This document shows, piece after piece, positions 15,234 through 42,494 of a DNA stretch of 64,000 nt (its first letter is position 1; each line of letters starts with the position of its first letter). The stretch is from Halobaculum sp. CBA1158 (lineage in GTDB: Archaea > Halobacteriota > Halobacteria > Halobacteriales > Haloferacaceae), in assembly GCF_021431925.1 (NCBI RefSeq), contig NZ_CP090371.1:2728001-2792000 (forward strand), in the 5' to 3' direction. Under the pieces are notes generated by a model. The model was not told where the DNA came from. It worked only from the letters and a program-made list of their open reading frames with translations, and ran no database searches. Position numbers and translations under genes: made by a program.

Positions 15234-16613
15234 TCAGTCCTTCTCGCCCGCGCCGACCGCGCTCTCGCCGAGCTTTTCGCTCCCCTCGATGACCTCGCGA
15301 CCGCCCATGTACGGCTGCAGGGGCGCTGGCACGTCGACCGTGCCGTCGTCGTTCTGGTAGTACTCCAGGATGGCGACGACGACGCGCGGGACGGCCACGC
15401 CCGAGCCGTTGAGGGTGTGGAGGTACTCGGCCGACTCGTGGCGTTCGGGGCGGAATCGCAGGCCTGCACGGCGGGCCTGGAAGTCGCGGAAGTTCGACAC
15501 CGACGAGACCTCGAGCCAGCGACCGCCCTGGTCGGGGCCGTCGTCCATGTCGTCGCCGGGGGCCCACACCTCGATGTCGTACTTCTTCGCCTGCGTGAAG
15601 CCGAGGTCCCCCGTGCACATCTCCAAGATGCGGTACGGGAGATCGAGGCGCTTCAGGACCTCCTCGGCCTCCTCGACGAGGCGGTCGAAGCGCTCGTCGC
15701 TGTTCTCGGGGCGCACGAAGTTCACCAGCTCCACCTTGTTGAACTGGTGGACGCGGACGATCCCGCGCGTCTCTGTGCCGTGTTCGCCCGCCTCGCGGCG
15801 GAAGTTCGGCGAGTACGCCTGGTGTTTGACCGGGAGGTCGTCGTCCAGCAGGATCTCGTCGCGGTACATGTTCGTCACGGGAACTTCGGCCGTCGGGAGG
15901 AGCCAGAGGTCGTCGTCGTCGATCTCGTCGGCGTTCTCGTCGCCGACGCGGTAGGCGTCCTCGACGAACTTCGGGAACTGACCGGTCCCCTCCATCGAGC
16001 GCGAGTTCACCGGGATCGGCGGGAACACGTCGGTGTACCCCTGCTCGCGGTGGACCTCCAGGAAGAACTGGATGAGCGCGTGCTCCAGCATCGCGCCCTC
16101 GCCCTTCGCGAAGTAGAAGCCCCCGCCCGACACCTTCGCGCCGCGGTCGAAGTCGAGGATGTCCAGATCCTCGCCGAGGTCGTAGTGCGGGGTCACCTCC
16201 GGCGGGAGACTCCGGAGGTCGTCGAACCCCTCGCGCCGCCGTTCGACGTTCTCCGACTCGTCCTCGCCGACGGGCACGTCGTCGTCGGGGATCTGCGGCA
16301 GGTGGAGCATCGCCTCGTGGAGCTCCTCCTCCAGTTCGTCGGCGCGCTCTTCGATCTCTTGGAGCTCCGACTTGAGGTCCTGGCTCCTGTCGATCGCCTC
16401 TTGAGCTTCCTCCTCCTTGCCCTCCTGTTTGAGCTGGCCGATCTTCGACGAGACCTCGTTGCGCTCGTGTCGGAGCGTGTCGCCGCGACCCTTCAGGTCG
16501 CGCCACTCCTCGTCGAGTTCGAGGATCCGGTCGAGGTCCACGTCGACCCCCTTGTTCTCGATGCCCTCGCGGACCGCCTCGGGGTGCTCGCGGAGGAACT
16601 GCCTCGAAATCAT
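15234..16613 (-). CDS. serS: Seryl-tRNA synthetase
   Basis: A 459-residue class II synthetase of normal length. The N-terminal tRNA-binding coiled coil covers about residues 30-105 (EEWRDLKGRGDTLRHERNEV, then SQDLKSELQEIEERADELEE). The catalytic domain has motif 2 (SPNFRREAGEHG, GIVRVHQFNKVE) and motif 3-like GLRFRPE, and ends with the LNGSGVAVPRVVVAILE segment. It charges tRNA-Ser with serine. It is the common bacterial/haloarchaeal type, not the methanogen type. The ATG at 16613 is preceded by a TATA-like cggtttagg about 27 bases upstream. Confidence 0.97.
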   Translation of the reverse strand: MISRQFLREHPEAVREGIENKGVDVDLDRILELDEEWRDLKGRGDTLRHERNEVSSKIGQLKQEGKEEEAQEAIDRSQDLKSELQEIEERADELEEELHEAMLHLPQIPDDDVPVGEDESENVERRREGFDDLRSLPPEVTPHYDLGEDLDILDFDRGAKVSGGGFYFAKGEGAMLEHALIQFFLEVHREQGYTDVFPPIPVNSRSMEGTGQFPKFVEDAYRVGDENADEIDDDDLWLLPTAEVPVTNMYRDEILLDDDLPVKHQAYSPNFRREAGEHGTETRGIVRVHQFNKVELVNFVRPENSDERFDRLVEEAEEVLKRLDLPYRILEMCTGDLGFTQAKKYDIEVWAPGDDMDDGPDQGGRWLEVSSVSNFRDFQARRAGLRFRPERHESAEYLHTLNGSGVAVPRVVVAILEYYQNDDGTVDVPAPLQPYMGGREVIEGSEKLGESAVGAGEKD

Positions 16614-16737
16614 TTGGTGGGGATTCCGGTGGTCGCGCCTAAACCGTGTCGGGTCTGTGTGATCGATTGGCTGTCGTGGTTTCCGGAAGCGACGACGACT
16701 GATCCACAGATCCAGTTGCGGTGAGGGTACAGTTTCC

Positions 16738-16850
16738 GAAAGCCCCCGGGCGTCTCGTGGGCTGCGACTCGCTGCGCTCCTTGGCCTTCGGCCTGCGGTG
16801 CTTGCTTCGTCTCGCCTCACGAGACGCCCGGCCCCTTTCAGTCCCACCCG
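16738..16850 (+). repeat. Dispersed hairpin element, copy 1 (113 bp)
   Basis: The element begins gaaagcccccgg and ends gcccctttcagtcccacccg (16831-16850). Between them lies a long inverted repeat: cgggcgtctcgtg at 16747-16759 pairs perfectly with cacgagacgcccg at 16818-16830. The same two ends flank a different hairpin at 42368-42494, and the right end recurs inverted at 17019-17038. It sits in the gap upstream of serS. It shows no coding capacity with acidic composition. Confidence 0.8.
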
Positions 16851-17018
16851 TGGTTCGAGCAGGCCGGACGTTGATGCCTCTCGAACGGTGCGCACGAACC
16901 GCGGCCGCGGTGGCGCGCGTCGGCGGGCCTCCGTGCCCGCCGACCGCGCGAGGGGCGAGGAGCACAGCGAGGCCGGAGGCCGAGCGAGCACCGCAGGCGG
17001 CTGGGGAGGGTGAGGTCG
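16851..17018. other. Non-coding stretch between two inverted element ends
   Basis: This stretch separates the right end of copy 1 from its inverted counterpart. It is rich in ggcgggcctccgtgcccgcc-type self-complementary runs and 'gcgaggagcacagcgagg'-type reading-frame-free repeats. I see no gene here; the open frames are arginine-rich shadows. Confidence 0.5.
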
Positions 17019-17047
17019 CGGGTGGGACTGAAAGGGGCCTTTCGGGA
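17019..17047 (-). repeat. Dispersed hairpin element, minimal inverted copy
   Basis: Positions 17019-17038 are the exact reverse complement of the 20-base right end at 16831-16850. They run directly into cctttcggg, the counterpart of the ccgaaag left end, so this copy consists of the two conserved ends joined without the variable hairpin. Together with copy 1 it makes an inverted pair about 170 bp apart. Confidence 0.7.
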
Positions 17048-17130
17048 ACCGTGTCTCCGCGGTGTCGTCCGACTCCGACGGCTGCTCGTACCCACCCCGG
17101 CGGACGAAACCGGCCGATCCGAACCGCGAC

Positions 17131-18264
17131 TTATCGACTGAATTCGATCGCCGCGCCCTGCCCGAAGCCGACGCACAGCGACGCCAGTCCGCGGTCCGCG
17201 TCGCGCTTGATCATCTCGTGGATGAGCGTCACCGGCAGCCGCGCGCCCGAGGCCCCCAGCGGGTGTCCAAGGGCGATCGCGCCGCCGTTGACGTTGTAGA
17301 TGTCCTCGTCGATCCCCAGTTCCCGACGGGCGTACTCACACTGGGAGGCGAACGCCTCGTTCACCTCCACGAGGTCGTAGTCGTCGATGTCGCGGCCCGC
17401 GCGCTCCAACAGCCCTCGCGTCGCGGGGACCGGGCCGATGCCCATCACCGTCGGGTCGACGCCCGCGACGTTGTTCGTGCCGACCTCCGCGAGCACGTCG
17501 AGTCCGTGCTCGTCGGCGAACTCCCTCGAGCACACGAGCGTCGCCGCCGCGCCGTCGGTGATCTGCGAGGAGTTCCCCGCCGTCACGGAGCCGTCGCCGG
17601 TGAACGCCGGCGAGAGCCCGCCGAGCGTCTCCATGTCCGTGTCCGGGCGGATGCCCTCGTCCTCGGTGACGACGCCGTCGTCGGTTTCGATCGGAACGAT
17701 CTCGTCGTCGAAGCGGCCCGACTCCGTCGCCTCGGCGGCGCGGTGGTGCGACCGGACGGCGAACTCGTCTTGGGCCTCGCGGGAGACCTCGTACTCCTCG
17801 GCGACCTTCTCGGCGGTCATCCCCATCTGAAGCTGGAAGACGTTATACATCTCCGACAGTTCGGGGTGGAGGTGCTGGTAGGAGTCGCCGTCCATCGGCA
17901 CCCGACTCATGCTCTCGACGCCGCCGGCGACGATGCACTCGCGGTTCCCGGCGGCGACCGCGTCGCCGGCGGAGATGATCGCCTGCATCGAGGAGGCGCA
18001 CCAGCGGTTGATGCTCGTCGCGGGCGTCCCCTCGCCCAGTTCCGACAGCAGCGCGATGACGCGGGCGACGTTGTTGTCCTGCTCGCCGCGCTGCTGGGCG
18101 ACCCCCCACATGAGGTCGTCCACGTCGTCGGCGTCCAGGTCGTGCTCCGCGAAGATGTGGTCGATGAGCGCCACGGAGAGGTCCTCGCTTCGCGTGTCCG
18201 CGAAGACGCCGTCCTGCCTGCCGAACGGGGTGCGATACGCGGCCGCGATGACGGGTGTTGCCAT
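17131..18264 (-). CDS. Acetyl-CoA C-acyltransferase (thiolase)
   Basis: A 377-residue thiolase. The acyl-binding Cys89 lies in [10 protein letters not shown], His334 in [13 protein letters not shown], and the base Cys364 in [11 protein letters not shown], so all catalytic residues are present. Normal family length is about 390. It should condense or cleave acyl-CoA/acetyl-CoA (beta-oxidation, or acetoacetyl-CoA formation for isoprenoids). No hydroxyacyl-CoA dehydrogenase is next to it, so the pathway is not fixed by context. The ATG at 18264 has a TATA-like ggatttatc about 25 bases upstream. Confidence 0.93.
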
Positions 18265-41091: not shown

Positions 41092-42243
41092 TCAGGCGTC
41101 GCGCCCGCCCTCCCGGCGACGCTCGTCGTCCCCGCCGTGCTCGTCCGTGCCACCTGCACCGTCCGCGTGCTCCTCGTCGACGCCCCGGTCGACTCCGTCC
41201 TCGGTTTCGCTCCCCTCGTCGCGCTCGAACGCCGCCGCGCCGTCGACGAGGCGGTCGTCGTCGCCGGCGGACCCCCCGGCATCGTCGCCCGCGGCGTCGG
41301 ACACCGGGGCATCGGAGGCCGGCGCGTCGGAGGCCGACCCCTCCCCGAGCCCGTCGTCGCCCTGCACAGCGTACTCCGGGAGGTCCGCGGCGTCGACGTC
41401 GCCCGCGAGCACCTCGTCGGGGTCGATTTCGGCGAGCCCGTCCGGGTCCGACGCCGTCCGGGAGTCGGTATCGGCGTCCGCGTCCACCTCCGCCCCCGGT
41501 TCGGACTCGGCCTCGCTCTCGGCGTCGGCGTCGGCCTCCCGCGCGGCGGCCAGTTGGTCGGTCGTCGGGACGAACAGGCGGTCGGTTTCGGGGTCGTACG
41601 GGCCGTCGGGAACCTCCCCGCGCGCCTCCGCGCGGAGGCCGTCGGCCGCCTCCGGTGCGGGGTCGGGAGCGTTTCCGGCGTTCGTGCGGACGCGCTCGGC
41701 GCTGACGCCCCGGATCCGGGCCCACTCCTCGGCGTCGACGCCGGCGAGGGTGACCGCCCACGCGTCCAGCGCCGCCGCCGGCGACGACCCCGACTCCAGC
41801 AGGCCGACGAGCGACCGGAGCGCGCGCGTCTCGGCCTCGCGCCACCAGTCCGGCTTGCCGACGTAGACGGGGTAGAAGAACGGCGTGTCGCTGGCGTCGG
41901 CCAGGTCGCGCGGGAACGAGACGGTGCGGTCGTGCACCTCCTGAAAGACGGTCATGTTCACGGCGGCGACGGCCGCCAGCAGGTCGTCGTCCATCTCGTA
42001 GCCGGCGGCCTCCAACTCGGCTCGGAGGTCGGCGAAGGCGAACGCGAACCACGCCGAGTCGGCGTCGTCGATCAGCAGGTGATTCGGGCTGTCCGCGTCG
42101 CGGGCGCGGCGGTACTGCTCGACGATGCGATCCTGGACGGCGTCGTGGAGGACGCGCAGTCCGATCCGCACGTCGTCGACGGCGAAGTCGGTGCGCTCGG
42201 CGACCTCCTCGATGTACGCGTCGGGAACCGCCGGGCGGTGCAT
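41092..42243 (-). CDS. Unknown haloarchaeal protein with long acidic tail
   Basis: A 383-residue protein. The first about 215 residues are helical and ordered (DAYIEEVAERTDFAVDDV, RALRSLVGLLESGSSPAAAL, LAGVDAEEWARIRGVSAERV). The last about 160 are strongly acidic with Asp/Ala/Gly/Ser repeats (DADAESEAESEPGAEVDADA, SDAPASDAPVSDA). The segment ARIRGVSAERVRTNAG looks like an HTH-like helix pair. No family or motif is recognised. A TATA-like cggttttagc lies about 30 bases upstream of the ATG at 42243. It is likely cytosolic. Confidence 0.75.
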   Translation of the reverse strand: MHRPAVPDAYIEEVAERTDFAVDDVRIGLRVLHDAVQDRIVEQYRRARDADSPNHLLIDDADSAWFAFAFADLRAELEAAGYEMDDDLLAAVAAVNMTVFQEVHDRTVSFPRDLADASDTPFFYPVYVGKPDWWREAETRALRSLVGLLESGSSPAAALDAWAVTLAGVDAEEWARIRGVSAERVRTNAGNAPDPAPEAADGLRAEARGEVPDGPYDPETDRLFVPTTDQLAAAREADADAESEAESEPGAEVDADADTDSRTASDPDGLAEIDPDEVLAGDVDAADLPEYAVQGDDGLGEGSASDAPASDAPVSDAAGDDAGGSAGDDDRLVDGAAAFERDEGSETEDGVDRGVDEEHADGAGGTDEHGGDDERRREGGRDA

Positions 42244-42367: not shown

Positions 42368-42494
42368 GAAAGCCCCCGGCGCGTTCGGGTCGGTGCAGCC
42401 GGCGCGCTCCTCGTCGCTCGGCGACGCCTCGCTCCTGCGGTGCTCACCGGTCCGCGCCGTCCCCGAACGCGCCGGCCCCTTTCAGTCCCACCCG
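42368..42494 (+). repeat. Dispersed hairpin element, copy at 42.4 kb (127 bp)
   Basis: It has the same ends as the element at 16738: gaaagcccccgg at the left and gcccctttcagtcccacccg (42475-42494) at the right, identical to 16831-16850. The interior differs: here ccggcgcgttcggg (42376-42389) pairs perfectly with cccgaacgcgccgg (42462-42475). Conserved ends with unrelated but self-complementary centres argue for a defined element rather than chance. Confidence 0.82.

Follow-up and report, generated by a model that had tools for sequence, protein, structure and literature searches.

The window analysed here, a stretch of 64,000 nucleotides from Halobaculum sp. CBA1158, carries a dispersed hairpin element, and the question is what kind of element it is: an earlier note proposed a structured RNA, a transcription boundary or a mobilised MITE-like sequence. 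The note counted three copies, two of them full and one minimal and inverted, and all three are present (Table 1); their right end, gcccctttcagtcccacccg, is identical at 20 of 20 bases in all of them. The perfect stem of copy 1, given there as 13 bp, is actually 14 bp, as is that of the other full copy. At each full copy it is the minus strand, the G-rich one, that folds, and in both cases the start codon of the gene downstream (serS for copy 1, the gene for a 383-residue protein for copy 3) lies 124 bp from the 3′ end of the copy. Searching the window with GGGTGGGACTGAAAGGGGC (19 bases, up to three mismatches) gives three matches, compared with none in 100 shuffles. The left end alone (12–13 bases, up to two mismatches) gives six matches in the window against 5.05 expected, which is not significant.

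Table 1. Coordinates, within the window, of the parts of the element, the module beside it and the genes downstream.
Feature	Position	Strand	Remarks
Full copy 1	16738-16850	-	5′ end motif, terminal stem, GGG/GGG loop, P1, head
Copy 1, 5′ end motif CGGGTGGGACTGAAAGGGGC	16831-16850	-	P0 GAAAG at 16835-16839, GGG at 16832-16834
Copy 1, P1 5′ arm CCGGGCGTCTCGTG	16818-16831	-	14 bp, perfect with 16746-16759
Copy 1, P1 3′ arm	16746-16759	-	
Copy 1, head	16760-16817	-	conserved internal loops (GAAGCAAGCACCGCAG ... AAGGAGCGCAGCGAG) around apical hairpin GGCCGAAGGCC
Copy 1, 3′ end	16738-16745	-	GGG and CTTTC; CTTTC pairs with GAAAG at 16835-16839; basis includes covariation
Second conserved module (GCGGTGGCGCGC-hairpin-GCGCGAGGGGCGAG ... 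GGCTGGGGAGG)	16907-17009	+	between the two inverted copies
Minimal copy without hairpin (GGGTGGGACTGAAAGGGGCCTTTCGG)	17019-17047	+	inverted doublet with copy 1
Full copy 3	42368-42494	-	P1 arms at 42462-42475 and 42376-42389 (14 bp); head at 42390-42461
Seryl-tRNA synthetase gene (serS)	15234-16613	-	downstream of copy 1; SerS domains found
Gene for 383-aa protein	41092-42243	-	downstream of copy 3; no Pfam match

The hairpin family is much larger than the three copies in the window and is spread through the Halobacteria. According to pattern searches, on which all of our genome copy counts are based, the source genome has 13 copies of GGGTGGGACTGAAAGGGGC (up to three mismatches) compared with one for the reversed pattern. 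A 17-base motif, with at most one mismatch, is found in 33 of 60 relatives, with a maximum of 90 copies per genome and no control matches. In a collection of 84,980 species at least 120 stretches match; among the matches listed, all are haloarchaeal except one, which is labelled Prevotella and has no hairpin. Rich matches among 197 genomes of the phylum are confined to the order of the window, with at most single matches elsewhere, consistent with chance. In a distant search of plasmids the core was matched in 36 records and the flanks were not; the organisms shown are haloarchaea. The ends, sought in the source genome and in other haloarchaea, are thus widespread in the class, contrary to the outcome that would have refuted the note, namely ends no commoner than their composition predicts. 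A virus-borne element was also considered and rejected, as there was no exact match among 2.9 million viral contigs.

The core is an interrupted hairpin of ∼110 nt (mostly 105–130 bp) with no transposase. Along the G-rich strand the order is GGGTGGGACT, the helix P0 (GAAAG/CTTTC), a GGG/GGG internal loop, the helix P1 (at least 9 bp) and the head; the helix names P0, P1 and P2 are our own. The head runs from a GAA/GA loop through P2, which contains a mismatch, a GACGCAA/GCAGCGA loop and a short helix (GCACC/GGAGC) to a variable apical hairpin. The interiors had been described as unrelated: this is true of the outer stem, P1, but not of the head inside it (CAAGCACCGCAG ... GAGGAGCGCAGCGAG), which recurs in an alignment of 65 copies sampled throughout the Halobacteria. 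Of the 27 pairs that RNAalifold predicts from 65 copies, 22 have changes on both sides. A rarer second class of head, with the same ends and P1, occurs in L014 (L014:1500), L095, L097 and L113. Set on the same ends and P1 in these loci and in L134, the unrelated head reads GGTCG ... CTATTC or CTATCC ... GATAT ... AGCGACC; the chassis is shared, and the head on it can be exchanged. The Rfam covariance models gave no credible match to positions 16400–17400 of the window (best E value 0.63, far below the cut-off).

P1 is complementary in 208 of 276 copies, compared with 23 expected when each 5′ arm is given a randomly drawn 3′ arm (maximum 32); interiors outside the window are therefore self-complementary, as the earlier note had supposed. 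The stem is also free in sequence: all four Watson–Crick pairs are found at each of positions 2–10, the first pair, C-G, being the exception. Single copies with GGAAG/CTTCC and CAAAG/CTTTG ends led us to predict the matching 3′ end in genomes fixed for one variant. CTTTG was found in 13 of 13 scorable copies from genomes fixed for CAAAG and CTTCC in five of five from genomes fixed for GGAAG, so that the predicted compensatory changes in P0 were borne out in all 18 scorable fresh copies, with the proviso that the ends used for finding copies overlap those being scored. When copies were searched for by the head, 69 of 77 had the 5′ end within three mismatches, which is a partial control as most loci had been fetched by the end motif. 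The suggestion of selection on ends plus structure is upheld by the covariation in P0, P1 and the head together with ends conserved well above the flanks. Chance or composition as the origin of the repeat is ruled out by the window shuffles, the reversed-pattern count and the complementarity of P1.

In several genera other than that of the window, copies are flanked, ∼40 bp beyond the core, by TGTTCAGATAAG (5′ side) and CTTATCTGAACA (3′ side). Such IS6-type termini sit at fixed positions beside the core, with 42 matches in inverted orientation compared with four others (∼0.6 expected per class and side). Autonomous haloarchaeal IS6 elements have the termini GGCGGTGTTCAGATAAG / GGTAGTGTTCAGATAAG and 8 bp duplications (for example CCGGCAGC at L250 and ATCTCACC at L253); those sharing these termini with our element are found at L246–L253 (except L247), L256 and L262. 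Units with both termini are mostly ∼200–215 bp long, and duplications of at least six of eight positions occur in five of 16 well matched cases (shuffled mean 0.56, maximum 4 in 2000). Perfect 8/8 target duplications are found at L147 and, separately, at L290, the terminus of which is of a second IS6 type, GGTCGTGTTTAGTTAAG; the duplication is missing or decayed in roughly half of the units bounded by two termini. The termini and the 8 bp duplications thus identify the unit as an IS6-type MITE in those genera.

IS6 mobilisation is well supported there and unproven in the genus of the window: no IS6-type terminus lies beside any copy in its genomes G000, G004, G006, G007 and G009, and the window genome itself, G000, has no IS6 match. 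A genome without IS6 can nevertheless be rich in copies, as in G025 (84 copies, no IS6 match). Since the termini were not found there, only homology of the core links the window copies to the family, and mobility in this genus is argued from near-identical hairpins at unrelated loci and from the replacement of interiors. The proposal of a MITE-like element is thus borne out for the family, through the termini and duplications of the other genera, and lacks this signature in the window genus.

The interiors in the window genus are replaced, inverted or deleted at fixed sites between close species, with the ends kept. Most copies in G009 and G007, two close species, are at orthologous places. 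At 24 orthologous loci of two close species the ends are 98–100% identical, compared with 88% and 79% for the flanks, and about half of the interiors are replaced or truncated. The interior has been swapped with both ends and both flanks retained in L180/L200, L186/L209 and L002/L221, and in G007 two loci with unrelated flanks, L195 and L202, have nearly the same hairpin. Copy losses are deletions, often between short direct repeats. The comparison of G007 with G009 gave no convincing clean empty site; orthologous sites free of a copy are deletion scars or rearranged (L170/L225 and L197/L238 resemble scars; L173/L226, L178/L229 and L202/L239 are rearranged or unclear). We read this as interior replacement at established sites by recombination or transposition.

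Several other repeats accompany the element. The module between the two inverted copies of the window, GCGCGAGGGATGAGC ... GCGAATCGGTTGGGGAGG (16907–17009), has 57 copies in the fetched loci, from the genus of the window and others; 43 of them have the 5′ motif of the element within 200 nt downstream (median 25 nt) and 14 do not. A second palindromic repeat of ∼60 bp, with the boundaries TTCGA...TCGAAC, consists of a pair of hairpins connected through TGATGACGA or TCATCACGA. It is nested inside the head of the element in 13 of 18 pattern matches, some of which are counted on both strands (inside heads at L033, L039, L073, L085, L150 and L186; elsewhere at L020 and L169). Inverted doublets make up 45 of 251 units; in those at L057, L061, L070, L071 and L073 the starts of the 17-base motif are only ∼40–48 bp apart, and the centre is partly palindromic and resembles AGCCGGTTGGCCAACCGGCT. 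The 3′ flank of L286 has tandem repeats that include the 3′ end of the element (GGGGCTTTGGAGGTGTTCTCCGCGGCAGCAGCC...).

The mismatches in P1 distinguish the two strands. Isolated mismatches, read on the G-rich strand over 163 distinct pairs, are G·T in 37 cases and A·C in seven (p = 5 × 10⁻⁶), and G·G in 11 and C·C in one. Head and ends point in the same direction in 187 copies, and the head is reversed in only two (L212:6486 and L242:10015; L002, the same locus as L242, has the usual orientation). Symmetric mismatches would be expected if the fold were selected on either strand alike or maintained by DNA repair, and the asymmetry together with the fixed orientation points to selection on the single-stranded form of one strand. 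The pattern thus argues for a G-rich strand that would be selected for its fold, as RNA or single-stranded DNA alike; a strand-biased mutation process could contribute to the asymmetry. GGGTGGG and the facing GGG/GGG tracts would possibly form a G-quadruplex, a candidate suggested solely by the conservation of the tracts. The strand pattern bears directly on a purely selfish palindromic MITE, in which gene conversion and correction of the palindrome as DNA would maintain the pairing, selection on a single-strand fold playing no part. Such an element would account for the wholesale replacement of interiors, the two inverted heads and the deletion of hairpins at short direct repeats. Correction should be strand-neutral, however, yet the mismatches are not, and the head covaries, retains its internal loops and is almost invariably in one orientation. 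We consider this explanation unlikely.

The placement of the copies is also asymmetric. A same-strand start codon lies within 450 bp downstream of the 3′ end in 148 of 198 copies, 95 of these at 80–139 bp, and a divergent start lies on the other side in 111 of 198, more evenly spread; among the exclusive cases there are 70 with the same-strand start and 33 with the divergent one. These counts use a simple codon-usage gene caller with approximate start codons, and the extra 5′-side sequence of the element makes the two sides not strictly comparable. The same placement, the strand-specific mismatches and the ends conserved far above the flanks at orthologous loci would all be expected of a host-functional, cis-acting RNA or DNA that protects leaderless genes against read-through, or undergoes processing as part of the transcript, with mobility being secondary. 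Close species differ by copy loss, however, a search allowing one mismatch finds no copy in 18 of 47 near-complete relatives, and 42 copies are flanked by divergent genes, so that transcription from a same-strand gene upstream is not available to them. A mainly host-functional element is thus, in our judgement, improbable, and the position just upstream of same-strand promoters suggests tolerance of insertion, plus possibly an effect in cis. Of the other proposals in the earlier note, a transcription boundary stays a candidate, the copies tending to lie a short way upstream of gene starts, and so does a structured RNA, for which the selected fold of one strand is the supporting result.

Taking these results together, the element is probably a non-coding, MITE-type mobile family of the Halobacteria with a hairpin core selected on one strand. 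IS6 transposases would have moved the units in trans in the genera with IS6 termini; copies in the window genus may be older residents, or may move by another route, and would exchange interiors by recombination between copies. The hairpin may be kept because a protein reads the ends, the GGG/GGG loop and the head, and the form read by this putative protein could be RNA, in transcripts that reach the element, or single-stranded DNA, in replication or transposition. A different weighting of the same observations, which we find rather unlikely, makes the hairpin itself the functional unit: a one-strand module of RNA or single-stranded DNA, possibly with a G-quadruplex, that a dedicated protein would recognise. 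More than one kind of mobile element would have spread it (IS6-type MITEs in some genera, other means elsewhere), and its action on the neighbouring gene would keep it upstream of promoters.

Integron attC sites have conserved ends, a paired stem free in sequence and a strand-specific fold. Our element shares all three features, and the loci at which interiors are replaced while ends and flanks are kept could be seen as the work of a recombinase that acts on the folded strand and swaps cassettes site-specifically at the conserved ends, in formal analogy to attC. The same picture is expected from ordinary recombination between copies, though, and the element, unlike attC, is dispersed singly; neither a recombinase or integrase gene nor a cassette array has so far been identified with it, and we think exchange of this kind very unlikely. 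An element like REP/REPIN or PATE, moved as single-stranded DNA hairpins by an IS200/IS605 (Y1, RAYT-like) transposase, would fit the single-strand hairpin, the extragenic location and the singlets and inverted doublets, but is extremely improbable given the IS6 termini and 8 bp duplications, which IS200/IS605 elements lack, and was rejected because the number of Y1_Tnp (PF01797) matches in a genome bears no relation to its number of copies (G025 has 84 copies and no Y1_Tnp, G059 has 36 and none, and G014 has no copies and ten Y1_Tnp).

The likely reading as a MITE-type family can be set against described systems. A review of the IS6 family gives 8 bp target repeats and archaeal clades Ai–Aiv, and lists a pair of MITEs, 227 and 336 bp long (PMC7986276). 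The element resembles IS6-family MITEs in having termini identical to those of local IS6 elements, 8 bp duplications, a length of ∼200 bp, no reading frame and an interior unrelated to the transposon, and differs in that its covarying single-strand hairpin core reaches far beyond the lineages with detectable IS6 termini. REP, REPIN and BIME sequences with their RAYTs are likewise extragenic hairpins, in singlets and inverted doublets and dozens per genome (PMC3116915, PMC2817692), whereas the hairpin of our element is much longer, its stem is free in sequence and there is no association with a Y1 transposase. A search of the literature by sequence returned nothing relevant, and the only close parallel in the literature on haloarchaeal palindromic repeats is a paper on Haloquadratum (PMC3119063). 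It describes MITEs, SMRs and PATEs, high-copy haloarchaeal repeats with no transposase, in which core deletions leave fused ends and a different or inverted repeat may occupy one position ('SwitchRepeats'), both of which resemble the replacement and inversion of interiors in our element. By these descriptions the element differs from two of these kinds (PMC3119063): SMRs have no target duplication and termini unrelated to transposons, whereas our element has IS6 termini and 8 bp duplications, and PATEs have no terminal repeats and are derived from IS605 elements. Within the literature searched, the family is apparently undescribed, the nearest Haloquadratum families having been compared by description.

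Small mobile repeats are usually recognised by their sequence, whereas the members of this family have in common short ends and a shape; with a main stem of free sequence, the family would escape ordinary repeat annotation, and Rfam has no model for it. The element ties IS6 transposition to a conserved single-strand structure and offers a natural experiment on the turnover of palindromes at fixed sites. Judged by its position in the genomes, it may also be a candidate cis element, open to testing, upstream of many haloarchaeal promoters.
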